A stretch of 33,651 nucleotides of DNA from Rhodoblastus sp. (GTDB taxonomy: Bacteria > Pseudomonadota > Alphaproteobacteria > Rhizobiales > Beijerinckiaceae): assembly GCA_020442275.1 (NCBI GenBank), contig JAGRKN010000056.1, forward strand, positions 6,682 to 40,332, read 5' to 3'. Positions 5,869-33,200 of this stretch are shown here, in pieces. A program made the translations under genes and the position numbers. The notes beneath the pieces were generated by a model. It was not told the DNA's origin, did not search any database, and saw nothing but the letters and a program-made list of their open reading frames with translations. Position 1 is the stretch's first letter, and each line of letters starts with the position of its first letter.

Positions 5869-7304
5869 TCGTTTCCAACCGCGTGGCGCTGCCGGGCGAA
5901 AAGCGCGCCGGCGGCCTCGCGGTCGCGGTCAAGGCGGCGTTGCGCGGGCGTCAGGGCGTGTGGTGCGGCTGGAGCGGCCGCGTCACCGAAGAGACGCCGG
6001 CGGCGCCGGAGATCATCGAGGGACGCAACCTCAGCTACGTCGCGCTCGATCTGAACATCGACGACCATCAGGAATATTACAACGGCTTCGCCAACAGCGT
6101 GCTGTGGCCACTGCTGCATTATCGCGTCGACCTCGCGGAATATTCGCGTGCAGACCTGTCGGGCTACATTCGCGTGAACAGCTATTTCGCCGATCAGGTC
6201 TCGAAAATCCTGCAACCCGACGACATCGTCTGGGTGCACGACTACCACCTGATGCGCCTCGCGCTGGAATTGCGCGCGCGCGGGCACGACAATCCGATCG
6301 GCTTCTTCCTGCACATTCCCTGCCCGCCGCCCGACATATTGCAGGCGCTGCCGAAGCACGCGGAAACGCTCGGCGCGCTCGCCGCCTTCGACCTCGTGGG
6401 CTTTCAGACGGACAACGACACGGACAATTACGGCAAATATCTCGAGACGCGTGGCGCGAGCCCATCGCGCGGCGGACGTTATTTCGAGATCGAGGGCCGC
6501 CGCGTACAGATCGACACATTTCCGGTCGGCATCGAAACAGCGATCTATGCGCGCGCGGCGCGCGCGGCTGCGCATTCGCCATTCATCACGGACCTGCTCG
6601 CGAGCCTGGGCGGACGCAGCCTGCTGCTGGGCGTCGACCGGCTCGACTATTCCAAGGGCATCGTCCAGCGCCTGCAAGCCTTCGAACACCTGCTCGATGA
6701 GCAGCCGAAATGGCGCGGCGCGACGACATTTCTGCAGATCACGCCGAAGAGCCGCGAGCGCGCCGCCGGCTACAAGGAGATGGAAGATCTGGTCACGGCG
6801 CTCGTCGGCCATATCAACGGCCAGTACGGCGAAGCCGCCTGGACACCGATCCGCTATGTCAACCGGTCCTACTCGCGCAGGCAGCTGGCCGGCATCTATC
6901 GCTGCGCGCAGGCCGCGCTGGTGACGCCGCTGCGCGACGGCATGAACCTCGTCGCCAAGGAATTCGTCGCCGCGCAGGACGAGAGCGATCCGGGCGTGCT
7001 CGTCCTCTCGCAATTCGCCGGCGCTGCGGCCGAGCTCGACGGCGCGCTGATCGTCAATCCGCACGAGAAGGAGGCCGTGTCGGCGGCGATCGGGCACGCG
7101 CTGACCATGCCGAAGGAGGAGCGCATTTCGCGCCACGCGCGCATGCTGGCGCGCATCAGCGACTATGACGTGACGCGCTGGGCTGAGACATTCGTCGCGC
7201 GGCTCGCCGAGGCGCGTCACAAATGGTCGCTGATCGACGGCATCAGACACATCTTCGCGCCGCGCACGGCGGATGCGCGCCGCCCGGGCCGCCGCATCGG
7301 CTAG
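5853..7304 (+). CDS. otsA: Alpha,alpha-trehalose-phosphate synthase (UDP-forming)
   Basis: This GT20 glycosyltransferase of 483 residues joins UDP-glucose and glucose-6-phosphate into trehalose-6-phosphate, which OtsB then dephosphorylates. Family motifs appear in order: VIVSNRV at the start, [57 protein letters not shown] and [13 protein letters not shown], the last two lining the nucleotide-sugar site. The GTG start at 5853 lies inside the end of the GH15 gene, with GGGAGA about eight bases upstream, and gives the standard N-terminus; the longer frame has no family match. It closes the otsB-GH15-otsA operon; order and overlaps imply coordinated expression. Trehalose made here is likely an osmotic or desiccation protectant. 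Confidence 0.95.
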
Positions 7305-7417
7305 TTCCGGCGCGAACATTTCTCGTTTCGCCTAGCGGATTCTCCAACGGAAGTGTATAGGTGAACCATCCGCCGCGCGCGTCATCGCGAACGGCGCCGA
7401 GGGAGGATTTCGACGAC

Positions 7418-8611
7418 ATGCGCGCACACTTTTCCATGAAATCTCTGGCGCTCGCCGCTGGCCTCGCGCTCGTGGCGCACGGGGCTCTGGCCCAGGACAT
7501 CAAGATTGCGCTCATCGCGGGCAAGACCGGCCCGCTCGAGGCCTACGCCAAGCAGACCGAGACGGGCCTCAAGCTCGGGCTCGAATACGCGACCAAGGGC
7601 ACGATGGCAATCGACGGGCGCAAGATCACGCTGATCGTCAAGGACGACCAGACCAAGCCCGACGTCGCCAAGACGGCGCTGCAGGAAGCTTATGAAGACG
7701 ACAAGGTCGATCTGGCGATCGGCACGACATCGTCGGCCGCCGCGCTCGCCATGCTGCCGGTCGCGCAGGAATCGAAGAAGATCCTGATCGTCGAGCCGGC
7801 GGTCGCGGATTCGATCACCGGCGACAAGTGGAACCGCTACATCTTCCGCACCGCGCGCAATTCGTCGCAGGACGCGATCTCCAACGCGCTTGCCATCGGC
7901 AAGCCCGGCGTGACGATCGCGACGCTGGCGCAGGACTATGCTTTCGGCCGCGACGGCGTCGCCGCCTTCAAGGAAGCGCTCGCCAAGACCGGCGCGACGG
8001 TGGCGGCGGAAGAATATGCGCCGGCCAACACGACCGACTTCACCGCCGTCGGCCAGCGCCTGTTCGACGCGCTGAAGGACAAGCCCGGCCGCAAGATCAT
8101 CTGGGTGATCTGGGCCGGCGGCGCCAACCCGCTCGCCAAGTTGAAGGACATGGACCCGAAGCGCTATGGCATCGAGCTGTCGACGGGCGGCAACATCCTG
8201 CCCGCGCTGGCGGCCTACAAGGCCTTCCCCGGCATGGAAGGCGGCGCTTACTATTATTACGAAATCCCCAAGAACCCGATCAACGACTGGCTGGTCGCCG
8301 AACACCAGAAGCGCTTCAACTCGCCGCCGGACTTCTTCACGGTCGGCGGTTTCGCGGCGGCGCAGGCGGCGGTGACCGCGATCGCCAAGGCCAAGTCCAC
8401 CGACACGGAAAAGCTGATCGCGGCGATGGAAGGCATGGAATTCGATACGCCCAAGGGCAAGATGATGTTCCGCAAGGAAGACCATCAGGCGCTGCAGTCG
8501 ATGTACGCCTTCAAGGTCTCGGCCGACAGCGACAAGCCGTGGGCGCGTCTCGAGCTGACGCGCGAGCTCAAGATCGAGGACATGCAGGTTCCGATCCGCA
8601 ACAAGCGGTGA
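7418..8611 (+). CDS. ABC transporter periplasmic substrate-binding protein, branched-chain amino acid type
   Basis: This 397-residue precursor has a clear signal peptide (MKSLALAAGLALVAHGALA) with predicted cleavage after Ala25, leaving mature QDIKIALIAGKTGPLEAY. It has the type I periplasmic-binding fold of the LivJ/LivK family. VDLAIGTTSSAAALAMLPVA forms the ligand-contact loop region, and VTIATLAQDYAFGRDGVAAFKE opens the second lobe. The ATG at 7418 has GGGAGGA at 7401-7407; the frame open to 7361 and an internal ATG at 7436 are less likely starts. It is the first gene of a complete HAAT-type transporter. Members of this family bind amino acids, but also short amides, aromatic acids and other carboxylates, so the ligand cannot be named. 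A palindromic repeat separates it from the ATPase gene. Confidence 0.88.
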   Translation: MRAHFSMKSLALAAGLALVAHGALAQDIKIALIAGKTGPLEAYAKQTETGLKLGLEYATKGTMAIDGRKITLIVKDDQTKPDVAKTALQEAYEDDKVDLAIGTTSSAAALAMLPVAQESKKILIVEPAVADSITGDKWNRYIFRTARNSSQDAISNALAIGKPGVTIATLAQDYAFGRDGVAAFKEALAKTGATVAAEEYAPANTTDFTAVGQRLFDALKDKPGRKIIWVIWAGGANPLAKLKDMDPKRYGIELSTGGNILPALAAYKAFPGMEGGAYYYYEIPKNPINDWLVAEHQKRFNSPPDFFTVGGFAAAQAAVTAIAKAKSTDTEKLIAAMEGMEFDTPKGKMMFRKEDHQALQSMYAFKVSADSDKPWARLELTRELKIEDMQVPIRNKR

Positions 8612-8630
8612 AGGTCCAAGCGTCGCAACG

Positions 8631-8715
8631 CCGTCATTGCGGGCGAAGCGAAGCAATTCATGGGGCTGTAACCCAGCTCTGGATTGCTTCGTCGCTTCGC
8701 TCCTCGCAATGACGG
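8631..8715. repeat. Palindromic intergenic repeat inside the transporter operon
   Basis: Left arm CCGTCATTGCGGGCGAAG... (8631-8660) is the reverse complement of the right arm ...TTCGCTCCTCGCAATGACGG (8680-8715), apart from a few mismatches and a six-base insertion, around a 19-base centre. It folds into a long hairpin in either strand's RNA. Similar 'CGTCATTGCGAGCGAAGCGAAGCAATCC' elements are scattered between genes in many Hyphomicrobiales genomes. Here it lies between the binding-protein stop and livG, where it could give extra transcript stability or partial termination and so more binding protein than ATPase. Confidence 0.85.
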
Positions 8716-8734
8716 ATTATTGAAGCGAGTTCCC

Positions 8735-9504
8735 ATGTCCGTCTCGCTCGAAACCCGCGGCCTGACGATCCGCTTCGGCGGCCATGTCGCGGTGGACCAT
8801 GTCTCCTGCGTCTTTCGGCCGGGCGAACTGACCGCCATCGTCGGCCCGAACGGCGCGGGCAAGACGACCTATTTCAATCTCATCTCCGGCCAGCTGCGCG
8901 CGAGCGAGGGCCAGGTGCTGCTCGACGGCGCCGACATCACCGCCGAAAGCGCGCCACTTCGCGCGCGACGTGGACTTGGTCGGGCGTTCCAGCTCACCAA
9001 CCTCTTTCCCAATCTGACGGTCGCGGAAAATGTGCGACTGGCCGTGCAGGCGAAGGCGGGCGTGCACTACGACATGCTGCGGCCGTGGAGCCTGCGGCGC
9101 GACCTGATCGCGCGCGCCGACAAAATCCTCGAGAGCGTGGCGCTGGAGAGCCGGCGCGCGCATACGGCCGCGGCGCTGTCGCACGGCGACCAGCGCAAGC
9201 TCGAAGTCGCGCTGATGATGGCGCTGGAGCCGCGCGTCTACATGTTCGACGAGCCGACCGCCGGCATGAGCGTGGACGAGGCGCCCATCGTGCTCGACCT
9301 GATCGCCCGACTGAAACGGGATACGTCCAAGATCATCCTGCTGGTCGAGCACAAGATGGACGTCGTGCGCTCGCTCGCCGATCGCATCATCGTGCTGACC
9401 AATGGCGCCTGCGTCGCCGACGGCGAACCGGCCGCGGTGATCGCCAGCCCCGTGGTGCAGGAGGCCTATCTAGGCATTGCGCCGAAGGAGAAGGGGAACG
9501 CGGC

Positions 9505-9508
<4 letters not shown>
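8735..9508 (+). CDS. livG: Branched-chain amino acid-type ABC transporter ATP-binding protein LivG
   Basis: This 257-residue ATPase energises uptake through the LivH/LivM permeases. Walker A is GPNGAGKT at residues 37-44, the Q-loop follows at GRAFQLTNLFPNLTV, the ABC signature is the divergent LSHGDQRKLEVAL, and Walker B is VYMFDEPTAGM. The LSHGDQR form of the signature and the C-terminal segment QEAYLGI are LivG characteristics that separate it from LivF. The ATG at 8735 gives MSVSLETRGLTIRFGG; the region upstream is the palindromic repeat, so a longer protein is not credible. The ribosome site is weak (AAGCGAG). Its stop overlaps the GTG of livF (GTGA at 9505-9508). Confidence 0.92.
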
Positions 9509-10226
<718 letters not shown>

Positions 10227-10230
<4 letters not shown>

Positions 10231-11237
10231 GCGCAATCGATACCGGCGCGGCGCTGCCGCAACAGAAGACGGACTATATACCGGTTCTCCTACCGCTCGC
10301 GCTCGCGCTCGCGGCCTTCCCGCTCATCGGCTCGTTCTCGACCTGGACGACGCTGACGCTGGCCGGTCTCGCCATGGGCATGATGATCTTCGCGATGGCC
10401 TCTGGCCTCACGCTCGTGTTCGGCCTGATGGACGTGATGAATTTCGGCCACGGCGCCTTTGTCGCGGTCGGCGCCTACGTCGCCGTCGTGGCCTTCGCGC
10501 CGATGGTCGCGCTGACGCAATCGCCGTCGCTCGCCTCCAATCTGATGGCGCTGATCCCAGCCATGCTGCTGGCCATGGCGGTGACCGGCGTCGCCGGCTA
10601 TGTCTTCGAACGCCTGCTCGTGCGTCCCGTCTACGGCCAGCATCTCAAGCAGATCCTGATCACCATGGGCGGGCTGATCGTGATCGAGCAATTGCTCTAC
10701 GCGACCTTCGGCCCGCAATTGAACCCGCTGCCGCTGCCCGCCGCCCTGCGCGGCTCGATCCCGCTCGGCGCGGCGGCGATCGAGAAATACCGGCTGCTCG
10801 CAGTCGTCGTCGGCCTCATCGTCTTCCTCGCCCTGCAATTCACGCTGACGCGCACCAAGATCGGCCTCCTGATCCGCGCCGGCGTCGAGAATGGCGAGAT
10901 GGTCGAGGCGCTCGGCTATCGCATCCGCCGCCTGTTCGTCGGCGTCTTCATGGCGGGCTCGGCGCTCGCCGGCCTCGGCGGGCTGATGTGGGCGCTCTAT
11001 CGCGAACAGGCGCACGCCTCGATCGGCGGAGAGATGATGGTGACGACCTTCATCGTCATCATCATCGGCGGGCTGGGCTCGGTCGGCGGCTGTTTCATCG
11101 GCTCCGTCCTGCTGGCGCTGCTCGCCAATTACGCGGGATTTCTCGCGCCGAAGGTCGCGCTCATCTCCAATATCGCGCTGATGGTGGCCGTGCTCCTGTG
11201 GCGGCCGCGCGGTCTCTATCCCGTGACGAGCAGGTGA
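10227..11237 (+). CDS. livH: Branched-chain amino acid-type ABC transporter permease LivH
   Basis: This 336-residue integral membrane protein has about eight hydrophobic segments. It carries the LivH motifs GLTLVFGLMDVMNFGHGAFVAVGAY near the N-terminus, a cytoplasmic coupling segment GLLIRAGVENGEMVEALGYRIRRLFVGVF, and the C-terminal IIIGGLGSVGGCFIGS loop. With LivM it forms the transmembrane channel for the substrate delivered by the binding protein encoded at 7418-8611. The ATG at 10227 overlaps the livF stop. At 336 residues it is slightly longer than typical LivH because of the TQSPSLASNLMALIP insertion between membrane segments. The gene ends four bases before livM. Confidence 0.92.
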
Positions 11238-11241
11238 GGCC

Positions 11242-12303
11242 ATGATCCTTTCCGGCAATCCGCCGCGCGGCAAGCTTCTCACGGCGCTCCTCGTTCTCGT
11301 CGTGGTCGTGCTCGCGCTGGCGCCCTTTCTGTTCCCGGGCTCGAAGCCGGCGAATGTAGCGGCCAAGATCTGCGTCTTCGCGCTGCTGGTCGCCTCGTAC
11401 GACCTGCTGCTCGGCTATGCCGGCATCGTCTCCTTCGCGCATACGATGTTCTTCGGCATCGGCGCCTACGGGATCGCGATCACGCTCTATGCGCTCGGGC
11501 CGTCGTGGGGCGCGATCCTGCTCGGGCTCGGCGCGGCCATCCTCGTCGCGGCGCTGTTCGCGCTGGCGATCGGCCTGTTCTCGCTGCGCGTGCAGACGAT
11601 CTTCTTCGCCATGGTGACGCTCGCCGTCGCTTCCGCCTTCGCCGTGCTCGCCTCGCAATTGTCGTGGCTGACCGGCGGCGAGGACGGACGCACATTTCGC
11701 GTGCCCGAGATGCTGCGTCCGGGCTTCAGGCTGATCGAAAACGGACCGTTCGGCATCACGATCAGCGGCCGCACGTTGTCCTATTACCTCGTCTTCTGCA
11801 GCGTGGTCGTGCTCTTCCTCGTCATGCTGCGCATCGTCGAATCGCCCTTCGGCCGCGTCCTGCAGGCGATCCGCGAAAATCCCTTCCGGGCGGAAGCCTT
11901 GGGCTATCGCATCATCTATCATCGCACGCTCGCCAATGTGCTGGCGGCGGTCTTCGCTGCCTGCGCGGGCGCGCTGAATGCGCTGTGGCTGCGCTACACG
12001 GGGCCCGACACGAGCCTGTCGTTCAACATCATGATCGACATCCTGCTCATCGTCGTGATCGGCGGCATGGGCACGCTCTATGGCGCGATCATCGGCGCGG
12101 CCTTGTTCGTGCTCGCCGAGAACTATTTGCAGACGCTGATGGGCGCGGCCTTCGGCGCGCTCAATGCGTCCGGCGCGGGCTTCGTCGCCAATTTCTTCAA
12201 TCCCGACCGCTGGCTCCTGTGGCTCGGCATTCTCTTCATCCTCTCGGTCTATTTCTTCCCGACCGGCATCGTCGGCAAACTGCGCGCGGAACCGAAATCA
12301 TGA
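11242..12303 (+). CDS. livM: Branched-chain amino acid-type ABC transporter permease LivM
   Basis: This 353-residue permease has multiple membrane spans and is the partner of LivH. LivM hallmarks are DLLLGYAGIVSFAHTMFFGIGAYG, the coupling-helix region FGRVLQAIRENPFRAEALGY, and the C-terminal VVIGGMGTLYGAIIGAALFV. The ATG at 11242 has GTGAGG immediately upstream. After the last membrane segment (LFILSVYFFPTGIVGKL) only a short basic tail remains; this permease is not fused to an ATPase as some LivM proteins are. Its stop overlaps the start of the hydrolase gene (ATGA at 12300-12303), which ties that enzyme to the transporter. Confidence 0.92.
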   Translation: MILSGNPPRGKLLTALLVLVVVVLALAPFLFPGSKPANVAAKICVFALLVASYDLLLGYAGIVSFAHTMFFGIGAYGIAITLYALGPSWGAILLGLGAAILVAALFALAIGLFSLRVQTIFFAMVTLAVASAFAVLASQLSWLTGGEDGRTFRVPEMLRPGFRLIENGPFGITISGRTLSYYLVFCSVVVLFLVMLRIVESPFGRVLQAIRENPFRAEALGYRIIYHRTLANVLAAVFAACAGALNALWLRYTGPDTSLSFNIMIDILLIVVIGGMGTLYGAIIGAALFVLAENYLQTLMGAAFGALNASGAGFVANFFNPDRWLLWLGILFILSVYFFPTGIVGKLRAEPKS

Positions 12304-13139
12304 GCAGCCCGGTCTCGAAATACGTCACGGTTCTCGATCGCGAATTGCACTATGTGGAATGGGGCGATCCGGCAAAACGCAAGCTCGTGCTGTGGCACGG
12401 ACTCGCGCGCACCGGCCGCGATTTCGACGATCTGGCGGAGGCGCTTTGCGGGGACTGGCACATCGTCGCGCCCGATACGATCGGTCGCGGCCTTTCGCAA
12501 TGGAGCCCCGCGCCGCAGACCGAATATTGCCTCGACTTCTACGGCAAGCTCGCGACCGCTTTCGTCGACGCGCTCGGCTGGCAAGAATTCGACTGGGTCG
12601 GCACGTCCATGGGCGGCGCGATCGCGCTGCGCGCAGGCGCCGGGCCGCTCGCCGGACGCGTCCAGAAACTCGTGCTCAACGATATCGGGCCTGAACTCAA
12701 TCCTGCCGCGATCGAGCGCATCCGCTCCTATGCCGGCAAGCCGCCGCGCTTCGACAGGGTGAGCGAACTCGAAGCCTATCTGCGGCAGATCTACCTGCCC
12801 TACGGTCATCTCAGCGACGCGCAATGGCGGCGCATGGCCGAGACATCGGCGCGCCGCCTGCCCGACGGCGGGATCACCACGCATTACGATCCGAACATGG
12901 TGATGCAGTTCATCCATCATCCGCAGGATTACGACCAGTGGGACGAATGGCGGAAGCTGACTTGCGCCATGCTGTGCTTGCGCGGCGAGAATTCCGACCT
13001 GCTGTTGCGCGAGGCCGCAGAGCGCATGCCGCGGGAAAATGCGCGCTGTCGCTTGATTGAAATCGCGGGCTGCGGCCATGCGCCCGCCCTCAATGTGCCC
13101 GAGCAAATCGGGATCGTGCGGGACTTCCTGCTCGGTTGA
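12300..13139 (+). CDS. Alpha/beta-fold hydrolase coupled to the transporter operon
   Basis: This 279-residue protein has no signal peptide and is probably cytoplasmic. Alpha/beta-hydrolase features are LVLWHGLARTGRDFDDLAEAL (oxyanion-hole HG motif), the nucleophile elbow VGTSMGGAIAL with Ser103, a likely acidic residue in LCLRGENSDLLL, and the catalytic His260 in GCGHAPALN. The triad therefore looks complete. The family covers esterases, lactonases, amidases and C-C hydrolases, so the reaction cannot be named. Its start overlaps the livM stop, which suggests it acts on the imported compound, perhaps by opening an ester, lactone or amide; that is inference. The rquA start lies 59 bases after its stop on the same strand. 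Confidence 0.88.
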   Translation: MSSPVSKYVTVLDRELHYVEWGDPAKRKLVLWHGLARTGRDFDDLAEALCGDWHIVAPDTIGRGLSQWSPAPQTEYCLDFYGKLATAFVDALGWQEFDWVGTSMGGAIALRAGAGPLAGRVQKLVLNDIGPELNPAAIERIRSYAGKPPRFDRVSELEAYLRQIYLPYGHLSDAQWRRMAETSARRLPDGGITTHYDPNMVMQFIHHPQDYDQWDEWRKLTCAMLCLRGENSDLLLREAAERMPRENARCRLIEIAGCGHAPALNVPEQIGIVRDFLLG

Positions 13140-13198
13140 CCGGGGCCTTGCGGCAGCGCAACGCGGGCGGCCGGGAATCAGCGCCTGATCGCGCCGTG

Positions 13199-14014
13199 AT
13201 GGACGCCCTGGACGACAATCATTTTCGCGAAGCCGCCGGGGAGCCGAGCGCGAATGCGCCGGTTGCGCGTTCCAGCGCGCCGCCGTCCTATCTCGTCGAT
13301 CACTACTGGTGGGCCTATGTCCATCCGCGCGCCGTTCGCCTGTTCGAGCGGCAATGGCTCGTCAATGCGATCCTGTGGGGCAATTACCGGCGCCTGCGCG
13401 ATGCAGCCCTCGCCGAGCTCGGGCCGCTCGACGGTCGCACCCTGCAGGTCGCCTGCGCCTATGGCGATTTCACCAATGTCCTGGCCGCGCGCACGACCGA
13501 GAGCGGCGGCCGGCTCGACGTCATCGACGCGCTGCCGATCCAGATCGACAATCTGCGCGCCAAACTACAGCTCGCGGCGCCGGTGCGGACGCACGTCATG
13601 GACGCGGCGGCGATGGAATTTCCCGACGCGCGTTTCGACCGCGCCGTCCTGTTCTTCCTGCTGCACGAACAGCCCGAACGCGTTCGCCGACGCACGCTCG
13701 CGGAGGCTCTGCGCGTGGTGAAGCCCGGCGGCTCGGTCGTGGTCGTCGACTATGCGCGCCCGCAGCGCTCGAGCCCCTGGCGCTGGCTGATGCGGCCGGT
13801 TCTCGCGCTGCTCGAACCCTTCGCGCTGGACCTTTGGCGCGCGGAGATCCCGAGTTTCGCGCCTGAGGACGCGCGCGTCGTGACGGGACGGCGCTTCTTC
13901 GGCGGGCTCTATCAGCTCGTCGTGCTGACACGGCCTGCCGGCGCCACCTCGTTGTCCGGCAGCGCCGTCAATTCGTCCGAGACTGTCAGGAGCACGGGCG
14001 CGATCAGCGCATAG
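13199..14014 (+). CDS. rquA: Rhodoquinone biosynthesis protein RquA
   Basis: This 271-residue protein is related to class I SAM methyltransferases. Recognised RquA features are YWWAYVHPRAVRLFERQWLV at residues 36-55, ILWGNYRRLRDAAL, and the unusual substitute for methyltransferase motif I, VACAYGDFT at residues 84-92. LDVIDALPIQIDNLR, LLHEQPE around residue 156 and VVKPGGSVVVVDYARP follow. Published work on RquA shows it converts ubiquinone to rhodoquinone, with SAM unexpectedly supplying the amino group. Rhodoquinone lets cells run fumarate reduction at low oxygen. The ATG at 13199 is preferred; GTG at 13196 and TTG at 13136 are possible longer starts, and no strong ribosome site is visible. 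The last 25 or so residues after LVVLTRPAG lack family character and overlap the opposing MFS gene by 103 bases. It may be co-transcribed with the hydrolase. Confidence 0.87.
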   Translation: MDALDDNHFREAAGEPSANAPVARSSAPPSYLVDHYWWAYVHPRAVRLFERQWLVNAILWGNYRRLRDAALAELGPLDGRTLQVACAYGDFTNVLAARTTESGGRLDVIDALPIQIDNLRAKLQLAAPVRTHVMDAAAMEFPDARFDRAVLFFLLHEQPERVRRRTLAEALRVVKPGGSVVVVDYARPQRSSPWRWLMRPVLALLEPFALDLWRAEIPSFAPEDARVVTGRRFFGGLYQLVVLTRPAGATSLSGSAVNSSETVRSTGAISA

Positions 14015-15246
14015 GCGAAGGTGATCATCGCCACGCAGATCGTGAAACCGCCATAGGTCTCGTAGAGATGCGCGCCCCAGATGTCGCCAAGGTGCGAGGA
14101 GACATAGAAGAGGCAGGACGAGGCCATCATCGCCGTGCCCTGCAAGCGCGGCGGGCAGGAGCGGATCATCAGGTCGAGATAGGCCGCCGTCGCCATGCCG
14201 CCCATCAGCCCCATCGGCACGGCCGCGATCAGCGCCGCCTTGGTCGATGTGATGAACAGGAGCGGCACGAATTGCGGGATGGCGACGAGCGTTCCCCACC
14301 ACAGAAGCTTCTTCAGCGACACGCGTGTGCACAGCCATGCAAACAGGATGTAAGTCGGCACGAATGAGGCGGCGAAAATCGCGCTCCACTGGCCCCAGAC
14401 GGAATCCGGCGCCTTGAGCGTGTTCTGGAGGTAATATTGCAGCGGCGTGGATGAGCCCGGCGCGAAATTCCAGAGCATCCAGATGATCAGCGCCGGATAA
14501 ATCGGCCGGTGGCGCAGCAGGCGCTTCAGATCGCGCATGGGATGGTCCGATTCGAGCCTCTCGTCGCGAATGCCGTCGAAGACCGCGCGCGGCCTGAGCG
14601 TGGCATAGAGCACGATCATCCCCGAGGTCGCCGCGCCCACAAGGAACAGCGCACGGGCGGCGAGCGCGCCGTCCTGATGTTCGAGCCAATCCGAGAAATA
14701 ACCGCCGAGCAGAAGCGCGCCGACCGCCGGCACGGCGCTGAAGGCGCTCCAGGTGGCGCTCATCTGGCCGGGCATGGCGTGCTGCTGGCCGACGACAGAG
14801 GCGAGCCCGCTTTCGGCGGCGTCCATGAACAGCGTGCAGGCTGTGATCAGGAAGATCGCCAGCAGCAGAACATCGTAGCTCATCGGCGCGAAGGCGAAGC
14901 CGAGATAGAGCGCGGCGCAGACCGCGCCGAAGACCAGCATGAGGCCACGGTCGCGGCGGCCGAGCAGGTTCCAGCGGTCGCGCGCGAAGCCGAACAGGAA
15001 GGCGACGACCAGCGGGAGCCCGGCGATCGCCTGGAATATGGCGACCTGTTTGGCCGTGAGACCGAGCCGGTTCTTCAGATAGAAACTGAGGGGAATGTCG
15101 AGCAGGCCGCCCGCGGGGTCGGCGAGCGCGAGAATGACCGTCAGACCGCCGAAATAGAGGAGAATGCGAAAGCGCTCGGACGCCGGCAGGACGGTGGGCG
15201 CAACGGCGAACGCATCGCGATCGCTCGGCGCATCGGCAAGACTCAT
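13912..15246 (-). CDS. MFS transporter (12-helix, folate-biopterin/AmpG-like type)
   Basis: This is a 444-residue membrane protein with about twelve hydrophobic segments split by a central cytoplasmic loop (DGIRDERLESDHPMRDLKRLLRHR). The first half has FYLKNRLGLTAKQVAIFQAIAGLPLVVAFLFGFARDRWNLLGRRDR, a pattern of the folate-biopterin and AmpG-like branches of the major facilitator superfamily. APDSVWGQWSAIFAASFVPTY in the second half fits the same grouping. The substrate is unknown. The ATG at 15246 is preceded on the minus strand by GGAACG. The C-terminal coding end runs 103 bases into the 3' end of rquA, so the two genes are convergent and overlapping. No operon partner is visible on this strand. 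Confidence 0.82.
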   Translation of the reverse strand: MSLADAPSDRDAFAVAPTVLPASERFRILLYFGGLTVILALADPAGGLLDIPLSFYLKNRLGLTAKQVAIFQAIAGLPLVVAFLFGFARDRWNLLGRRDRGLMLVFGAVCAALYLGFAFAPMSYDVLLLAIFLITACTLFMDAAESGLASVVGQQHAMPGQMSATWSAFSAVPAVGALLLGGYFSDWLEHQDGALAARALFLVGAATSGMIVLYATLRPRAVFDGIRDERLESDHPMRDLKRLLRHRPIYPALIIWMLWNFAPGSSTPLQYYLQNTLKAPDSVWGQWSAIFAASFVPTYILFAWLCTRVSLKKLLWWGTLVAIPQFVPLLFITSTKAALIAAVPMGLMGGMATAAYLDLMIRSCPPRLQGTAMMASSCLFYVSSHLGDIWGAHLYETYGGFTICVAMITFAYALIAPVLLTVSDELTALPDNEVAPAGRVSTTS

Positions 15247-15565
15247 TCCATCGTTCCGGCCAAGCTGCCCCCTGCGCTCATCTAGGGCCGGGCGCCGGCG
15301 CGCGTCGAGTGGCGCGGCTCACAATCGGAGCGCCTTTCCCGCCGCAATTGCGGGCATTTCGCCGCAGGCGCAGCGGTCCTTGATGTCGCGCCGGTCGGAG
15401 CTGGATGGTTTGGGGAACGAGGGCAGGGAGAAGGGCGAACCGATCAGACGGCCCGTCCCTTCCCAGCCGGCCGATGCGCCAGCCTGCCTCCCTCTAAGCC
15501 TGCCGCTTTATTTGCAGGACCTGCCCCACCGGCAATGTGCAAAATGTCGGGTTGACGAGGCAAGC
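15247..15565. other. 319-base divergent intergenic region with a 12-base palindrome
   Basis: No credible gene is present; an open frame crossing it has no family character and continues the regulator frame upstream. It should hold the promoters of the MFS gene (minus) and the regulator gene (plus). CCGCAATTGCGG at 15342-15353 is a perfect 12-base palindrome about 96 bases from the MFS start. GCAGG-A-CCTGC at 15514-15524 is a smaller inverted repeat about 42 bases before the regulator ATG. No convincing -35/-10 pair was found. Confidence 0.4.
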
Positions 15566-16138
15566 ATGTCAGTGTCCAAAATGGACACCCATGAAAATTG
15601 CGATTTCGCCATGAAAGCCCGACTGCAGCGCAACAGCGCGCGCGACAACAGCCTGATCATCTCGTTCGGGTTCAACCAGTATCTGATGGAAATGTCGCGG
15701 CTGGTCACCCAGCGCTTCGAGGGCGACACCGACAGTTATTTCATCCTGGCCGCCATCTCGGTCGCGAGCATCGGGCATGTTCTGGCCGATCCCGCCAAGG
15801 CGCGCCGCTACGGCTCGATCAACACGCGCATCGAGGAGGACTACGCCTATATCCGCCTGCTGCCGCTGGCGGAGATCACGGGCATGCCGCGCACCACCGT
15901 GCGCCGGAAAGTGGCGACGCTGATGGCGCTCGGCTATGTCGAGCACGACCCGAAGCACGGCTACCGGGTCGTCAAGGGCTCGATGGCGAATTGCCCGCAT
16001 CTGCGCCAGATCATGCAGACGCAGATCGCGCTCGTGCTGCGGCTGTTCAACGTCATGCTCGGCGGCGCGCTGATCGAGTTCCAGCCGACCGAGAACCGTC
16101 ACAGGAAGCTGGCGTCGATCGGCAAGCCCATGAAATAG
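15566..16138 (+). CDS. Small winged helix-turn-helix transcriptional regulator
   Basis: This 190-residue protein has an all-helical N-terminal part (NSLIISFGFNQYLMEMSRLV through ILAAISVASIGHVL). A winged helix-turn-helix follows at about residues 100-140: LPLAEITGMPRTTVRRKVATLMALGYVEHDPKHGYRVVKG. The recognition helix TTVRRKVATLMALGYVE is of the kind found in MarR- and IclR-like proteins. No cyclic-nucleotide or receiver domain is visible, and the C-terminal segment is helical with no recognised ligand domain. The ATG at 15566 has GAGG at the right distance; upstream codons in the same frame are not supported. A 17-base inverted repeat covers codons 3-8. The gene converges with, and overlaps by 40 bases, the flavin-dependent gene at 16099-17250. 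Its targets are unknown. Confidence 0.72.
   Translation: MSVSKMDTHENCDFAMKARLQRNSARDNSLIISFGFNQYLMEMSRLVTQRFEGDTDSYFILAAISVASIGHVLADPAKARRYGSINTRIEEDYAYIRLLPLAEITGMPRTTVRRKVATLMALGYVEHDPKHGYRVVKGSMANCPHLRQIMQTQIALVLRLFNVMLGGALIEFQPTENRHRKLASIGKPMK
15572..15588. promoter_or_regulatory. Inverted repeat at the start of the regulator gene
   Basis: GTGTCC-AAAAT-GGACAC is a perfect six-base inverted repeat with an AT-rich five-base centre, six bases into the regulator coding sequence. The shape suits a dimeric helix-turn-helix operator and could serve autorepression; it could equally form a small hairpin at the ribosome-binding region. Function is inferred from symmetry and position only. Confidence 0.35.
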
Positions 16139-21954: not shown

Positions 21955-24204
21955 CTACTCTATCGTCACATGCACGGCCTTCGAGGCTCCCGCCCGGAGC
22001 GGCAGGCGCGCCTGGATGCGGTGCGCGCCCGGCCGCATCGGCCAGTAGACAGGCTTGTCCGGATCGGTGATCGCGAAAGGCTCGCCGTCGACATACCAGA
22101 CGATCTGTTCCACGCGTGGTTCGACGCGCGCCTTGAGCGTCAGTCGATTGAGCGACACCGGCTGTTCCGGATTGCTCCAGATGCGGCTGTTGTTTTCCGG
22201 CGTCGAGACGATGAGGCGGACATCGCCTTTGGCCGCCGCAGGCTCGGCGATGCGATAGCCCTCTTCGCGCGCCCAGCCGCGCAGGATCGGCGCGGGCGTC
22301 TCGACTGCTTCCGCCTTCGCGGGCATTTCATCGGGCCGCACCCATTCGGTCAGCGTCTGGCCGCAGGCGCCGGTCGAGACCTTGCCGCTGGTGGCGCAAA
22401 TGTCGACGGCGACGCGGCCGGACGGCGGCGGGAAGCGGCCTGCGGTAATGTCGCCGGGCTTCACGCGATGGATGGCGTCCAGCAGCGCATGGGCGATGCG
22501 CGCGGGCGCCGTCGCGCCGCCGACGCCCTTCATCGGGCCCGCGTCGCCGCGCCCGACCCAGACGCCGACGATGACCTTTTCCGAGAAGGTGACGATCCAG
22601 GCGTCGCGATAGCCCTGCGACGTACCGGTCTTGAGCGCGACGGGATAGTTGTATTCCGTTGCGCCATAGCGCGAAAAACTCGGGAGGCGCGCGACGGGAT
22701 CGGACAGGAACGACGTCACGAGCCGCGCGGAATCCGTCGAGAGCAGGCGGCGCGGATCGCGCCGCGGCTGATCCTTGGCATAGACAAGATCGGCGAGCTT
22801 GCCGTCCTCGGCCAGCGCGGAATAGGCGCGCACGAGATGCTCGAGCGTCGTCGGCAGCGAACCGATCGCCATCGACAGGCCGAAATTTTCCGCGGGAGCT
22901 TCGACATTGTGCAGGCCGAGATCGTGCAGGAATCGGAAACTCGTTTCGAGGCCGGTCTGCTTCAACAGATTGGTCGCCGGCACGTTGCGCGAATTGGCGA
23001 GCGCCTGGCGCGGCAGCAGCGGCCCGAGGAACATGCCGTCGGCATTGTTCACGCCGGACGCGCCTTCGGGCAGGTCCGCCATGATGTCGGTCGGTTTGAT
23101 GACGCCGCGCTCCAGCGCCAGCGCGAACAGGAATGGCTTGAGCGTCGAGCCGGGCGAGCGCTGCACGCGCGTGAAATCAAAGGCGCCGGCGCGCCGGTCG
23201 GAATAATCGGTCGAGCCGACGCGCGCGAGAATTTCGCGGCTGCCGCGTTCCAGAACGATAACGGCCGCCTGCTGCGCGCCAGCGTCGCGCCAGGGACCGA
23301 GATATTTTCGTGCGATTTTCGTCGCCTGCGCCTGTAGTCCAAGATCGAGCGTGGCGCGCACGCGCGGATCGTACTGCGTCGACGGCGCGATCTTTCCTTC
23401 GCGCGCGAGACGCTCGTAGAGCAGCGCGACATGTAGCGCATCCGGCCGGCGCAACGTGCGCGGCGTGTGCATGCGCGCCAGTTGCTTCTTCACGTCGATG
23501 AATTCGAGCGGCGGGATCACGCCCTGGCGCGCAAGCTCCTCGAGCACGCGCTGGCCGCGCCGGATCGCGCGATTCATGCCCTCGGGCTTGAGCAGGTTCA
23601 TCCGCGTCGGCGATTGCGGCACGGCGGACAGGAGCGCGATCTCCGCCCAGGAGAGATCGGCGACAGGCTTGTCGAAATAGAAGCGCGCGGCATGGGCGAT
23701 GCCGTGGCTGCCATTGCCGTAGGGCACGAGACGCAGATAGTGCGCGAGCAGCGCCTCGCGGCCGTAGCGCGCGGTCAGGGCAATCGCGGTCGCCGCCTCG
23801 ATCGCCTTGTTGACGAGATTGCGCGATTCCGGATGCTGCATGCGCGCGATCTGCATCGCGATGGTCGACGCGCCGGAACGATGGCCGCGCCCGCGAAAAT
23901 TTTTCCACAGCGCGCGCGCGACCGATTGCGGATCCACGCCGAAATGTTCCGCGAATCGCCTGTCCTCGAGCGCGAGCGTCGCGCGCACGACGCGGTCGGG
24001 CGTGCGTTCGAGCGGCCAATAGCCGTAGTCCGCCGAATTGCGGTCCGGCGCGAACGAGACCTGCGTGATGAAGGCGCCGTGGCGGTCGGTGACGATGAGG
24101 GTTGGTTTCGGGGCGGCGAGATGCGCGCGCGTGAGGGCGGTGAAGGCGAGGGCGATTGCGCCGACCGCGATGCAAGCCGCGGCGCCCGGCAGCAAGGCCC
24201 GCAA
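21955..24204 (-). CDS. pbpC: Penicillin-binding protein 1C (bifunctional glycosyltransferase/transpeptidase)
   Basis: This inner-membrane, periplasm-facing peptidoglycan enzyme is about 749 residues long. An N-terminal membrane helix (LLPGAAACIAVGAIALAF) is followed by a GT51 glycosyltransferase domain with LEDRRFAEHFGVD (catalytic Glu near residue 80) and SGASTIAMQIARM. The transpeptidase domain has SPGSTLKPF with nucleophile Ser353 and Lys356, a SRN motif, and KTGTSQGYRDAW at about residue 525. The C-terminus is the PBP1C-specific domain (RIWSNPEQPVSLNRLTLKAR onward). The start is uncertain: TTG at 24204 or 24195 lies just after a repeat element, while the frame is open to TTG at 24357 only because the repeat happens to be translatable. 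pbpC next to alpha-2-macroglobulin is a conserved pairing. The C-terminal stop precedes another palindromic repeat. Confidence 0.92.
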   Translation of the reverse strand: MRALLPGAAACIAVGAIALAFTALTRAHLAAPKPTLIVTDRHGAFITQVSFAPDRNSADYGYWPLERTPDRVVRATLALEDRRFAEHFGVDPQSVARALWKNFRGRGHRSGASTIAMQIARMQHPESRNLVNKAIEAATAIALTARYGREALLAHYLRLVPYGNGSHGIAHAARFYFDKPVADLSWAEIALLSAVPQSPTRMNLLKPEGMNRAIRRGQRVLEELARQGVIPPLEFIDVKKQLARMHTPRTLRRPDALHVALLYERLAREGKIAPSTQYDPRVRATLDLGLQAQATKIARKYLGPWRDAGAQQAAVIVLERGSREILARVGSTDYSDRRAGAFDFTRVQRSPGSTLKPFLFALALERGVIKPTDIMADLPEGASGVNNADGMFLGPLLPRQALANSRNVPATNLLKQTGLETSFRFLHDLGLHNVEAPAENFGLSMAIGSLPTTLEHLVRAYSALAEDGKLADLVYAKDQPRRDPRRLLSTDSARLVTSFLSDPVARLPSFSRYGATEYNYPVALKTGTSQGYRDAWIVTFSEKVIVGVWVGRGDAGPMKGVGGATAPARIAHALLDAIHRVKPGDITAGRFPPPSGRVAVDICATSGKVSTGACGQTLTEWVRPDEMPAKAEAVETPAPILRGWAREEGYRIAEPAAAKGDVRLIVSTPENNSRIWSNPEQPVSLNRLTLKARVEPRVEQIVWYVDGEPFAITDPDKPVYWPMRPGAHRIQARLPLRAGASKAVHVTIE

Positions 24205-24222
24205 GCGTCGTGCAACACCGCG

Positions 24223-24331
24223 CCCTCTCCCCGCTTGCGGGGAGAGGGAGGGGGCGAGGGGCAACGGGACTGATACGTGATGATCGCCCGGCCCCTCACC
24301 CCTGCCCTCTCCCCGTTGCACGGGGAGAGGG
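24223..24331. repeat. Pair of inverted hairpin repeats between the macroglobulin gene and pbpC
   Basis: CCCTCTCCCCGC-TT-GCGGGGAGAGGG (24223-24248) and CCCTCTCCCCGT-TGC-ACGGGGAGAGGG (24305-24331) are two perfect 12-base-pair hairpins. Their flanks (GGGGCGAGGGGC on one side and GCCCCTCACCCC on the other) show the two copies face each other. The 'CCCTCTCCCCG...CGGGGAGAGGG-CAGGGTGAGGGGC' element is a dispersed intergenic repeat of alphaproteobacteria. It fills the gap between the two genes and may attenuate transcription into pbpC. Confidence 0.85.
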
Positions 24332-24340
24332 AGAGTATCG

Positions 24341-27300
24341 TCACCGAGCGATGACAATCCGCGCTCCTGCGCTCGCGCCCTGCAGGCCCTTTTGATACAT
24401 GGTCTCCGCCAGACCCGCGGGCTGGGTGAAGCTGCCGGCGACCTGCGCCTTCACGCGATAGACGAAGCGGTAATTGCCCTTGGGCAAAGAATCGTAGGCG
24501 TAGAAGACGCGGTCGCCGAACGAGGTCCATGTCGGCGCGAGCGTCGGCGCGGCCGATGGCTGCGCTTCGGCCGGCGCCGTCGCCAGGTTCGGATTCATCG
24601 GCTCGAAGCCGGCCGCGAGCGGCAGCGCGATCGCGACATGCGTGCGGTCCTGCGGATTGACGAGTTCAACCGTCTCCTCGATGACGTCGCCGACCTTCAC
24701 GTTGATCGCGCCATCCGCGCCGGCAGCGATTTTTTCCGGGGGCGCGTTGGCAACAACCTTGGCGAGCGTGCGCGTGATCGCAAAGCCGTTCGAATAGCCT
24801 GTCGCCTTCGCGCCAGGCTCGTTCGACTCGTAGCGCGTATCGACCAGCACGACGATCGGCTCACGGCTCGTGTTGGCGAGCGTGACGGCGCCCGTCGCTG
24901 TGCTGACGACGCGCAGCACGGGATTGTTGGCGTCGAGCGTCAGAGCCTTGGCGCTTCCGCCTTCGGTCAGCGTCAGCGCGATCGGCGCGAGCGGCCGGCG
25001 CCAGGCGGCGGCGAGCGCGCGCACGGCCGCGGACGTGGCGTTGGTCGAACCCCAGCCGTCGCCCTCGCCGATGCGCATGAGGCCGTCGCGCAGCACGGGG
25101 AAGCGCGGATCGTCGGGCGCGGCGAGCGCGACCGCGCGCGTCATCTCCGCGAGGCTGCGCGCTTCCGAGGGGAGGATGCGCGGATCGCTGCTCTCGCCCG
25201 CGATGCCGCCATAGGCCGGCGCGCCATTGCGCGAGACGATTTTCACGCGAGCCCACATGGTTTCGAGCAGCGAGGCGACCGTGCGGCGGTCGACGTTTGG
25301 CGCGCGCGTGGCGGCCGAAGCCATTTCCGCGACGCTCGTTGGCCCCATGAAGTCGGCCCGGCGCGCGAGTTCGGCGACATAGGCTTCGTCGAGTTTGCCG
25401 CCGTCGGCGAGCGCGGTCAGCGCCTCGACGCGCTCGTGCAGTTCCAGGCCCGTCATCAGGCGCGGATAGTCGGAGCGCAGGGCGAGCTTCAACACATTGG
25501 CGAGACGTTCGGCGAGCTTGTCGTCGATCGGCTCGCCCGCGCGCTTTGCGTTGACGAGGAAGGAATAGGCCCACGCCGTCAGCGACACATTGCCCTTCGC
25601 GCGAGGCCAGAAAGCGACAAGACCGTCGGCGTCAACCGCCTGATCGATCGCGGTCTGCGTATTCTTCACGTCCTGGCCGATGCGTTTGTCGAGCCCGGCC
25701 GCCGACATGATCGGCGTGAAGTTCTTCAGCGCGACGCCGGCAGACGCCAGCGAGATGCGCTGCTCCGTACAGCCGTAGGGATATTCGACGAGCGCATCGA
25801 GACCGGCGATCAACCGCACGATCGCAGGATCGGATGCGAGCGCGAGCGTGCGACGGAAGGTTCCCGCGCGCGCATCCGACGGCGCGGCCGTGAGCGTCTT
25901 CGAGGCGCCTGCAGGCACTTCGACGATCTCGTAACGGCGCACCGGCGAACGGTCGGGCTTCACCGGCAGCGTAAGTTCGACGGCGTCGCGCGCCTTGTCG
26001 GCGTCGCGCGTGACGGCGAATGTCAGCTTCACGGGATCGGCGCGATCTTCGCCGACAACGGCTTTCGCATCGATGCGCGCGGGCTTGCCGCCGTCCCATG
26101 CGAAAGCCTGCTCTCCTGTCGCGAGCTTCAACCCGTCGGCGGCGAATGTCGCTCGACCCGCGCCGCCCGGACCTTCGACGACCCGCGCGATCAAGCCGGC
26201 GTCGAACGTATCGCCCGGCCGTACGAAGCGCGGCAGCACGGGCTGCGCGACGAGGGCCTGACGGATCAGCATTTCGCCGGTCGCGAAGCCGAAGCGGTCG
26301 GGACCGCTCACGGCTTTCGCGCGCAGCTTGAACACGGTCAGCGTATCCGGCAGCTTGATCTTGATCTTCGCGACGCCATCGGCGCCTATCTTCACGCTCG
26401 GCAGATAGATCGGCACCGGCGTGAAATTTTTCCGCACCGAGATATTCGTCTCCGCGCCCCATTCGTCGAGGCCGGCGTCGCCGCCGGGAATCTCTTCGAG
26501 CGGCAGTACGCCGAAGGCCATGTTGCGCGTGTCTCGCGCGGCCATCGTCGTGGGGCGCTCGACGATGAAATCGGGGAGCGGATCGAGACGGCGTTCCTTC
26601 GCCAGAGACAGCACTGCCTGATCGACCATCCAGAAGGTCGCTTCGCCCGAGAGGGGCGCGCCCTTCTCGTCGCTCAGCCGGATCGTCGCCTCGACCTCCT
26701 GGCCCGGACGCGCCTTGCCAGGCGCTTCGATCTTGACGTTGACGATGTTCTGCACGGCCGTGACCGTGACCCATTTGGTGGCGGCGATGGTCACGGGCTT
26801 GCCCTGATCGAAGGGCGCGGAGGGATTGGGCGCGGTCTCAGGCAGACGGCCGCGCATGATCAGGAAATGCACGGCGAGCTTCGGCATCTCCTCCTTCGCG
26901 AGCGTCGTCGTATAGCGGCCGAAGCCGTTGTCGATGTCGATCCAGTCGTAGCGCCAGGCGCCCGAAGGCTCCTCGACAATGGCGAGCGCGCGCGCTTTCT
27001 GGAACGGCGACTGCACGACGAGCGTCGCGGTCTCGCCGGGCGCGTAGGCTTCCTTGTCGGCCGTCACCGTCGCGGTCTGCGAGGGCGCCCGCGCCCAGGT
27101 GACCGGCGACTGGCCGCCGACGAAGAAGTCGACGCTCACCTGCTGGCGGCGGCCGATCTTGTCGTAGGCCTCGACCTGCACAAGATAGACGCCGGCCTCC
27201 TTCGCCTCGAAGGAGAGCTTCTGCGCCTCCTTCGCGCTCGTGACCTTCCGCTCGACCAGCGTGTCGTCGATCGTCTGCGTCACGTATTTCGTGGCGCCCT

Positions 27301-30277: not shown

Positions 30278-30286
30278 GGTCTCGTC

Positions 30287-33200
30287 TCAGCGGGGCTGGG
30301 TTGTCTTGGCGTTGGACTTGAGGCCGGCGAGGCCGAGAAACTTCTCGATCTCTTCCGGTGGCGGACCGGCGGGCGGCGGCTCGAGGCCGACAAGCGCGGG
30401 GCGCACGACGGCGGCCGGCGCATCGGCGGGCATGCGCGCTTCGAGTATGTAGCGGCCGGGCGCCAGCTTTCTGATTTGCGATACGCCGGTTCCAATCAGC
30501 TTGCCGCTTTCATCCATCAGGCGCGCCTCGGCGCGGTCGGGATCTGCGCGCAGGCCGATGCCGATCTCGGACGCCTTCTTCACCTCGAAGCCGAACAGGA
30601 CGCTCGCGCCCGGCGCGATGGCGACCGCATCGCCGACGCCTTCCTTGACCGGCAGAACCGGCGCCGAGGTCAAATCGAGCGCGCCGCCAAGCGGGCCGTC
30701 GTGCGGCGACCAGATCGTCAGCGTCGCCTCGCCCGCCGCGACATAGCGGCGAAAATCGGCGCCCGCCGCGTAGAGCTTCATTTCGCGCGCGCCGTTCTGT
30801 TCGAGCGCGACGACGACCGGCGCGCTGGTCGTGACGCCGAGGAGTTGCGGCTTGTCCTGTTTCAGAGTGAAGGCCATGGCGGCGCCTTCGAGCCTGACGG
30901 ACGCTGGCGCGGCAATCGCGCGGGCCTGCGCCTTCGGCCAGGGCGAAGCGCCCGCGCGTTCGAGCCAGGCCGCGACGAGACCCGGCTGGTAAGCCAGCGC
31001 GACCTCTCCGGGCCCATCGAGCGTCAGCGTCGCGCCACGCAACACGCGGCCGGATTTCGAAACGAAAGTCACTTCCGCGCCCTCGACGCGCAGCACATCG
31101 CCCTGCTGCGCATCGACGCGCAGCAGCGACGAGCCGGCCGCGCCGAAGAAGCGTTTGACGATGCGATCGACCGCGACCGGCTCGACCTTCGCCGGCGCCG
31201 CGGCGAGGCGCACGGGCTGCGGCTTGTCCGAGAGGTTGACGAGCCAGACCTCCGAGGCGCTGGCGCCGAGCGAGCGCGACAGAGCCGCATTGACCGCATG
31301 CAGCGCAAAGACCTCGTTCTCGATCGGCCCGACGAAGGCCGCCGTTCCGGGCGCGAGATCGATGTCGAGCTTCTTGTCGCCGGAAGCTAGCGTGACAGGC
31401 TGCGCGGTCAGCGGCGGCAAGAGGATCGAGACTTCGCCCGCCGCCGCGCGCTTGGCTGCGACCGCAACGTCGAGCGATTCAATGTCGATGCGCAACGCGT
31501 CCGCGCCGCCGGCGTTCCACACGCGCAGGGGCTTTGCGCCGGCGAGAGCGGCGGCGACATTGTCGCCGACCGCCATGCCGCGCCCGGCGTCGAGGCCGGG
31601 CTGGCCGAAGGCGGAGGAGGCGCGCCAGACGCGCGCCTTGCCTTCCGCCGGCTGCGGCGCCGGCAGGAGCGCGCTTTCGCCGGCGTCGAGCGCCAGCGCG
31701 AGCGGTTCGCCCTTCCACGCGAGCGTCGGCGCCTCGACCTTGTCGAGCCCCGCATCGCGCGCGACAAACCACAGGCGTTCCGATTGCGGCGCGAGCGCGC
31801 CGGCGTCGGCGCGGGTCAGCGCATGACCATTCTGCGAGCCCGCGAACAGATGCTCGCTCGCCGTCTTGAGATCGACAACGACGGCGGACGCGGCGCTTCC
31901 GAGACCGACGCGCAGCTTCTGGCCGACCGCGTCGAGCGCGAGCGGTTCGAGCGCGACCGACGTCGCGTCCTGCGCATTGCGTACGACGTTGCGCGCGAGA
32001 ATGTCGATCGGCGCATCGGCGCCGTCGATCGACCAGACGGAGGCGCGCCATTCAGCCTTGTCGGCGCCTGCGGGCCAGGCGACGAGCGGGGTCTGGCCGC
32101 GTTCGAAACCGACGACCCGCCAGTTGCCATCCGCGTCACGCCGCTCGACCGAGAGCACGAGTTCGGAAGCCGCGCGCGCGGCCACCAGCGCGAGCGAGCC
32201 TGCCGGCGCGGCGGGCAGAGCGAAACGATGGACGCCGGCGCCAGAAATCTGCGCCGCGCCTTCCGCCTTCAGGGCGGGCGCGTCCTTCTCGGCGGGCAGC
32301 GCGAGCCGCACCTCGATGCTGTCGTCGCTCTTTTCGACGCGCGCATCGGCGTCGTCGGAGGGCGTCTCGTCGGCGCCGGCTTCGGCCTTCATCGCGGTCA
32401 GGGTCAGCGCATAGCGCCCCGCCGGCAGGCGGCGCGACATGGCGATGTTCCAGTCGTTCTGGCGACCGGCGAGCCGTTCGACGATGGCGCCATTGGCGTC
32501 GCGCAGCACGCCCTTCAGATCCTTGCGGCCGAAGGAGGTAAGATTGACGACGCGGTCTTCCGCGATCGCGAAATCGAGCTTCGCGGGAAGATCGACGAAG
32601 CGCGAATCGTCGGGCTGCAATTCCGCTGACTTCAGCACCACCGAATAGTCGAGCCGGTCGTCGCGGCCGATGGCGCGCGCCTCGAGGCGATAGGCGCCGG
32701 CGCCGAGCTTGCCGGAGAAGGGCCGGTCCTTCGAGACCTTTCCGACCAATTCCTTCTCGCCGCGAACGATGTCGCCGATCATGCCGTCGGTGATCGTGAG
32801 ATCGATCTTCGACTCGCCCTTCAGCGCGAAGGTCCAGACATCAGGCGTGCGCGACGCGTCCTTGGTCGCCGGCTCGCGCCATTGCAGCTTGTACTCGTCA
32901 TCGTAGCCGAGCTTGTGCGGCCCGTGGCCCTCAAGGGCGACATCGGGCGTGATCTGACTAAGGCGCGCGACCATGCGCGCATCGACGGACACGGGCGGCG
33001 TCACGAGACGATATTTGCCGGGCTCGAGCCTGATTTCGAGGCTCTTGAGCGGGCCTGGCGCCGTCAGCGGCCAGCCATCCGCATCTTCGAGACGCGCGGA
33101 AAGCGTGCGGCCGAGCGCGTAGAGTTCGAGACGATAGAGCCCGGCTTCGCGGATCTCGATCGGCGTGATGGCGCCGCGTCCGTCCGACAGCGTGGCGCGC

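Follow-up and report, generated by a model that had tools for sequence, protein, structure and literature searches.

Annotation of a 33,651-nucleotide stretch of the Rhodoblastus sp. assembly GCA_020442275.1 (contig JAGRKN010000056.1; here called the window, and its genome G000) from the letters alone left a question about one gene. The first-pass annotation took it for a homologue of rquA, named a profile search and a tree against UbiG/UbiE as checks, and expected "probably fumarate-reductase-type respiration." We asked whether the gene encodes a genuine RquA and which respiratory partner its product would serve. RquA has the class I methyltransferase fold but is a non-methylating enzyme: it passes the amino group of S-adenosylmethionine to ubiquinone, where this group replaces a methoxy group. 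The product, rhodoquinone, is a low-potential quinone, an electron carrier for low oxygen. The conversion by RquA in vitro is reported to require SAM and Mn2+ (PMC9814641), and the single-step route is said to be experimentally confirmed in 15 species (PMC11707229).

Identity of the gene

The NCBIfam equivalog model NF038261, with a cut-off of 175 bits, matches the protein with E = 1.9e-86, far above that cut-off (Table 1). The alignment covers residues 29-245 and model positions 2-218 of 218; the runner-up family reaches 47.3 bits and the top UbiE-type model 33.7 bits. The exact N terminus is uncertain because an in-frame TTG lies upstream, at 13136. At the other end, 26 residues remain after the model match stops at residue 245, and their codons lie across the 3' end of the convergent MFS gene. 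This tail is probably without function and may come from translation through the MFS end, because it coincides with that overlap and because the syntenic rquA of a second genome of the genus (G134) has its stop codon where the tail begins.

Table 1. Features of the rquA locus (positions in the window)
Feature	Coordinates	Strand	Remarks
livK-G-F-H-M, branched-chain amino acid type ABC transporter genes	7436..12303	+	Pfam Peripla_BP_6, ABC_tran x2, BPD_transp_2 x2; upstream of rquA
Alpha/beta hydrolase gene	12300..13139	+	Pfam Abhydrolase_6; orthologue in 6/6 genus genomes
rquA, 271 aa	13199..14014	+	ATG at 13199 to TAG at 14014, zero internal stops; NF038261 289.3 bits; predicted UQ-to-RQ aminotransferase, class I methyltransferase fold
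N-terminal RquA signature YWWAYVHPRAVRLFERQW, residues 36-53	13304..13357	+	Y36, W38, Y40, P43, R51 invariant, 90/90 rows
Altered SAM motif I QVACAYGDFT, residues 83-92	13445..13474	+	Q83, A85, Y88, G89 invariant, 90/90 rows
D110, counterpart of R. rubrum D118	13526..13528	+	D in 90/90 RquA rows
D135, counterpart of R. rubrum D143	13601..13603	+	D in 85, N in 5 of 90 rows
H156-E157 pair within FFLLHE	13664..13669	+	Invariant, 90/90 RquA rows
MFS transporter gene	13912..15246	-	Pfam MFS_1; convergent, 103-base overlap with rquA 3' end

The protein was aligned with RquA from 80 named loci, which are the 80 top-ranking of 260 loci retrieved with the window protein as query and lean towards close relatives, and from nine loci of further genomes of the family. 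Leaving out three loci that repeat named ones, together with one fragment at a contig end, gave 90 rows. Twenty-eight columns are identical throughout, and the window protein carries the consensus at all 57 columns where at least 86 of the 90 rows agree, as does that of G134.

The RquA-specific pattern and the altered SAM motif described by the first-pass annotation both lie where it had put them, at residues 36-53 and 84-92 (VACAYGDFT). The D-x-G-x-G-x-G of motif I is replaced by Q-x-A-x-x-Y-G: the window reads QVACAYG, E. coli UbiE DLAGGTG, and UbiG DVGCGGG, and D stands in the place of Q83 in UbiE, UbiG, and four other aligned methyltransferases. The intact glycine-rich motif I of the methylating UbiE/UbiG type is thereby absent from the window protein in this alignment. 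The change agrees with published descriptions of RquA (Stairs 2018, PMC5953543; Neupane 2022, PMC9814641) and is accompanied by a kept post-I aspartate, D110. We equated D110 and D135 with D118 and D143 of R. rubrum RquA by motif and by their equal spacing of 25; the D118A/D143A double mutant of the R. rubrum enzyme is reported to make zero RQ8 (PMC9814641). H156 and E157 are candidate pocket or metal ligands, and LLHE is present also in at least one non-RquA methyltransferase row.

By these sequence features the window protein is a genuine and apparently intact RquA, a fresh member that is ordinary within the known family. The homology call is borne out by the profile score, by the invariant residues, and by membership of the RquA clade described below. 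The organism is quite likely to make rhodoquinone; a family match is no guarantee of activity, because one Desulfobacterota rquA is reported to have yielded zero rhodoquinone in E. coli (PMC13386864).

Respiratory and quinone partners

A 2024 study considered it worth learning whether the gain of a low-potential quinone came with the gain of a fumarate reductase (PMC11707229). We took FrdD (PF02313) as the marker of a dedicated fumarate reductase and searched U32 proteins as PF01136 at E 1e-20, a family that holds UbiU and UbiV but is wider. In the family, the answer splits. Nine of 397 sampled genomes, spread over three genera only, have FrdD, and every one is rquA-positive; yet no FrdD was found in 5 of the 14 rquA genomes. 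U32 proteins occur in 54 of the 397 genomes, and 9 of the 14 rquA genomes have one. From the order, 80 genomes were compared, 15 with an RquA match (14 above the cut-off plus a split match in G488) and 65 without. FrdD was found in 7 of the 15 versus 1 of the 65, which leaves 8 of 15 with rquA and without FrdD; the lone rquA-negative FrdD genome (G452) is 83% complete and congeneric with two rquA genomes. Fisher's test gave 3e-15 for FrdD and rquA in the family, 1e-5 for U32, and 1.5e-5 for FrdD across the 80-genome order set, treating genomes as independent, which they are not. UbiU/V have been described in 73 of 84 rquA genomes and so are not strictly required (PMC11707229). The split match (G488:C214:5532-6172) is broken into two pieces whose frames differ; an FrdD match is about 3 kb away, and the break reflects either a frameshifted gene or an assembly error.

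The window's genus falls on the side without the marker. FrdD was found neither in the three rquA-positive genomes, G000 (76% complete), G113 (93%), and G134 (57%), nor in any of the six genomes of the genus, and a U32 (UbiU/UbiV-type) protein at E 1e-20 was not found in G000, G113, or G134. Among the rquA genomes of the family, G205 joins these three in having neither; G006 has U32 only and G076 FrdD only. The U32-positive genomes of the genus, G016 and G088, are rquA-negative, opposite to the co-occurrence elsewhere.

A TIGR01812 (SdhA/FrdA) match was present in all 17 genomes tested, the canonical type being checked by identity in 12. Canonical SdhA is complete in G113, and G000 and G134 hold fragments of it at contig ends that share 85% and 87% identity, respectively, with SdhA of G076; the window's contig has no SdhA/FrdA match. 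Since canonical SdhA is present in all three genomes, ordinary complex II could serve. Cytochrome bd subunit I was found in all three rquA-positive genomes of the genus, with two copies in G000, and in one of the three rquA-negative ones. UbiA scored above its cut-off in every one of the 10 genomes tested, including G000. The TIGR01988 hydroxylase family did so in 14 of 17, again including G000, and gave some match in 16, all but G006. COQ7 was found in none of the 17 genomes and is uninformative for the window's genus, so that the aerobic ubiquinone route is traced only in part, through ubiA and the hydroxylase.

The expectation of fumarate-reductase-type respiration is not supported by the genes found: FrdD and U32 were not found in G000, G113, and G134, incomplete as G000 and G134 are, and a canonical SdhA is present. 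We propose that the substrate would be ubiquinone made in the same genome, in which ubiA and one member of a ubiquinone hydroxylase family were found. Rhodoquinone would then be formed at low oxygen from ubiquinone of the oxygen-dependent route and be used with ordinary complex II as fumarate reductase or electron sink. We infer the aerobic ubiquinone and the ordinary complex II because the searches gave no FrdD and no UbiU/UbiV-type protein. Formation of rhodoquinone from aerobic ubiquinone is well supported, and its work with ordinary complex II is the presumed part. Ordinary complex II is the likelier partner than a dedicated fumarate reductase, the main caveat being genome incompleteness.

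That caveat defines the strongest alternative, in which frdABCD and UbiUVT are in the organism but missing from the assemblies, and fumarate respiration as first proposed is right. Both the low completeness of G000 and G134 and the frequency of the markers in rquA-positive family genomes (9 of 14 for FrdD and for U32) speak for it. We nevertheless consider it unlikely: G113, rquA-positive and 93% complete, shows neither marker, and FrdD is in none of the six genus genomes. With completeness taken as the probability of seeing a locus, the chance of failing to see one locus in all three genomes is 0.24 x 0.43 x 0.07, about 0.7%, and for G000 and G134 alone about 10%. Use of rhodoquinone with ordinary complex II stays the preferred reading. 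The genus, with close relatives with and without rquA and FrdD found in none, suits the study of rhodoquinone use without frdABCD.

Locus, distribution, and selection

In the window, rquA follows the liv and hydrolase genes on the same strand, its start lying 59 bases after the hydrolase stop. The same order, with rquA after the liv-hydrolase genes and facing the MFS gene, is found in G134, where the MFS gene sits in the same place and is 84% identical. All five liv genes are present in G113, G016, G056, and G088, and G134 has livG-F-H-M up to its contig end. The liv-hydrolase run of those first four genomes is without rquA and has different genes next to it; in G113, rquA sits on another contig. 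No respiratory or quinone genes were seen beside the window rquA, the window showed no FNR-type site with one mismatch or fewer, and a scan of 6800-15700 found no promoter. Terminator-like matches in the same interval numbered 8 versus 5.2 in shuffled sequence, which is near-equal. Elsewhere in the window, a minus-strand run at 21955-33649 comprises genes for a penicillin-binding protein 1C-like transglycosylase/transpeptidase and for a bacterial alpha-2-macroglobulin of 1978 residues, along with an open-ended frame of 1120 residues that had no Pfam match.

RquA scored above the cut-off in 14 of 397 sampled family genomes (a contig-end fragment in G383 is left out of this count) and in 15 of 397 sampled order genomes, G000 being included in both, and rquA is present in three of six genomes of the window's genus. 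Stairs et al. reported it in 7 of 514 Rhizobiales (PMC5953543). One genome, G402, has two RquA genes (C33 and C44), both above the cut-off. The occurrence is thus as patchy as the first-pass annotation had said. Its phrase "typical rhizobial relative" was loose: the organism shares its database family with Rhodoblastus and Roseiarcus genomes, genera where rquA recurs. With a GC of 0.688 and a GC3 of 0.835, rquA lies within the GC3 range of 11 neighbouring genes (0.796-0.898), in line with the neighbour-like composition noted before. The accompanying view that any transfer was not recent or came from a similar genome fits a locus common to G134 and nearest rows from the same family in the 53-row tree.

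In this tree of 53 chosen rows, window and G134 group together (94/93), G134 on a long end branch, within a set of 11 rows that also holds Roseiarcus and Rhodoblastus (95/94); the RquA proteins of these two genera are 54-66% identical to the window's. G113 groups with a Caulobacteraceae row (96/88) inside a five-row set with Bradyrhizobium rows (97/93). The placement of Roseiarcus depends on the tree, because in a 99-row quick tree Rhodoblastus is the only partner of window and G134 (91), and Roseiarcus rows group with G113. AU tests did not reject a single clade for window, G134, and G113 (p 0.086), and barely rejected a clade of the 12 family rows together (p 0.046). The differing loci and clades hint that the genus may have gained rquA twice independently, a reading tempered by the unrejected single clade.

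The surroundings of rquA in relatives are of another kind. In eight of the 14 family rquA genomes the gene comes after pufL, pufM, and pufC; it shares the strand of pufC and is separated from it by 165-285 bases, counted between match edges. The loci concerned are L119, L120, L121, L122, L123, L124, L126, and L127, in genomes of Rhodoblastus and Roseiarcus genera. Pfam confirmed the pufLMC products of G100 as reaction-centre proteins and cytochrome subunit. The placement of rquA like the last gene of a reaction-centre operon suggests joint expression with phototrophy, and points to a possible link with anoxygenic photosynthesis. In G076, frdABCD and rquA form one same-strand run (L118:9656-13723) with rquA after a Pfam-confirmed frdD; this is a single-contig 4.3 Mb genome whose RquA belongs to a second deep group and is 41% identical to the window's. 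Among the 80 named loci (best 80 of 260), the fetched stretch, short in some cases, held an frdA match in 51, pufLM in 3 (contigs of genomes among the eight above), canonical sdhA in 1, and none of these in 25. Stairs et al. describe rquA near complex II genes and a second frd/sdh operon in 12 bacteria (PMC5953543). The literature searched, with most subscription papers outside its coverage, yielded no rquA-puf link and nothing on rhodoquinone in Beijerinckiaceae.

The RquA core gives a dN/dS of 0.35 for the G000-G134 pair, compared with 0.06-0.23 for seven Rhodoblastus/Roseiarcus pairs and 0.15 for a Bradyrhizobium pair, all by simple counting, which is rough at these distances. Being below 1, the value indicates purifying selection; its elevation could reflect a fading function. 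RquA is 63% identical between the two genomes and seven neighbour proteins are 70-95% identical. Fast protein change fits this low identity better than xenologous replacement, because the dS of rquA (0.74) is near that of the HTH, MFS, and hydrolase genes (0.63-0.67), though it exceeds that of ACAD (0.56) and of the liv genes (0.41-0.46).

These data bear on the possibility that the protein has taken on another role by drift, or that its function is fading, and that rhodoquinone is no longer made. The raised dN/dS, the long G134 branch, a place beside neither puf nor frd genes, unlike many homologues, and partner genes that were not found would all suit such drift, yet we regard it as improbable given open frames, a dN/dS below 1, and the fact that window and G134 alike retain all 57 highly conserved positions. 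A tentative scenario, possible rather than probable, is that one genus gained rquA more than once, without dedicated fumarate reductase or oxygen-free ubiquinone route, and would pass electrons from aerobic ubiquinone-derived rhodoquinone to ordinary complex II, as in a proposal for protists. The window copy would be a puf-linked rquA moved to a transporter operon, with selection relaxed after losing that setting.

Fold, UbiE/UbiG, and assembly

An AlphaFold2 model of the window protein, built with 35 aligned rows, has a mean pLDDT of 85.5. The 50 best PDB matches listed for it are nearly all SAM methyltransferases or same-fold proteins such as the cyclase SpnF; the first has a TM-score by query length of 0.58, and yeast Coq5 stands at rank 49. 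No close sequence match that would represent a solved RquA structure was found in the PDB (best E 3.1e-6). In a tree of 18 RquA rows including the window, E. coli UbiE and UbiG, and eight other methyltransferases, with UbiG as outgroup, the RquA rows form a 100/99 clade apart from UbiE and UbiG, with the bootstrap not fully settled and several outside branches long. Joining the window to UbiE was rejected by the AU test (p 0.0036), and the tree check thus agrees with the first-pass call.

An ordinary UbiE/UbiG-like methyltransferase would have the same fold and would account for Methyltransf_25/11 and Ubie_methyltran scoring above their own cut-offs, but this is very improbable in view of the NF038261 score, the altered motif I, the tree, and the AU test; at the sequence level, score, motif I, and tree refute a UbiE/UbiG-type methyltransferase. 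That contamination put a foreign rquA into the fragmented G000 assembly (433 contigs) has a very low probability, because another assembly, G134, repeats the hydrolase-rquA-MFS order, and all five genus-mates share the liv-hydrolase genes that lie on the rquA contig.

Comparison with known systems

The frdABCD-linked RquA proteins of Accumulibacter, Competibacter, and G076 are of the same enzyme family as the window's, which differs in having no SdhA/FrdA match on its contig and no FrdD found genome-wide. RquA of Rhodoblastus and Roseiarcus genomes supplies the nearest rows in the 53-row tree (the 11-row set, 95/94). Eight of nine such genomes carry rquA behind pufC, and the same eight have FrdD, whereas the window's locus is without puf or FrdD. 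Compared with R. rubrum RquA, the window gene differs in its neighbours, which are transporter and hydrolase genes, while its product lies above the same NF038261 cut-off, has the altered motif I, and keeps equally spaced counterparts of D118 and D143.
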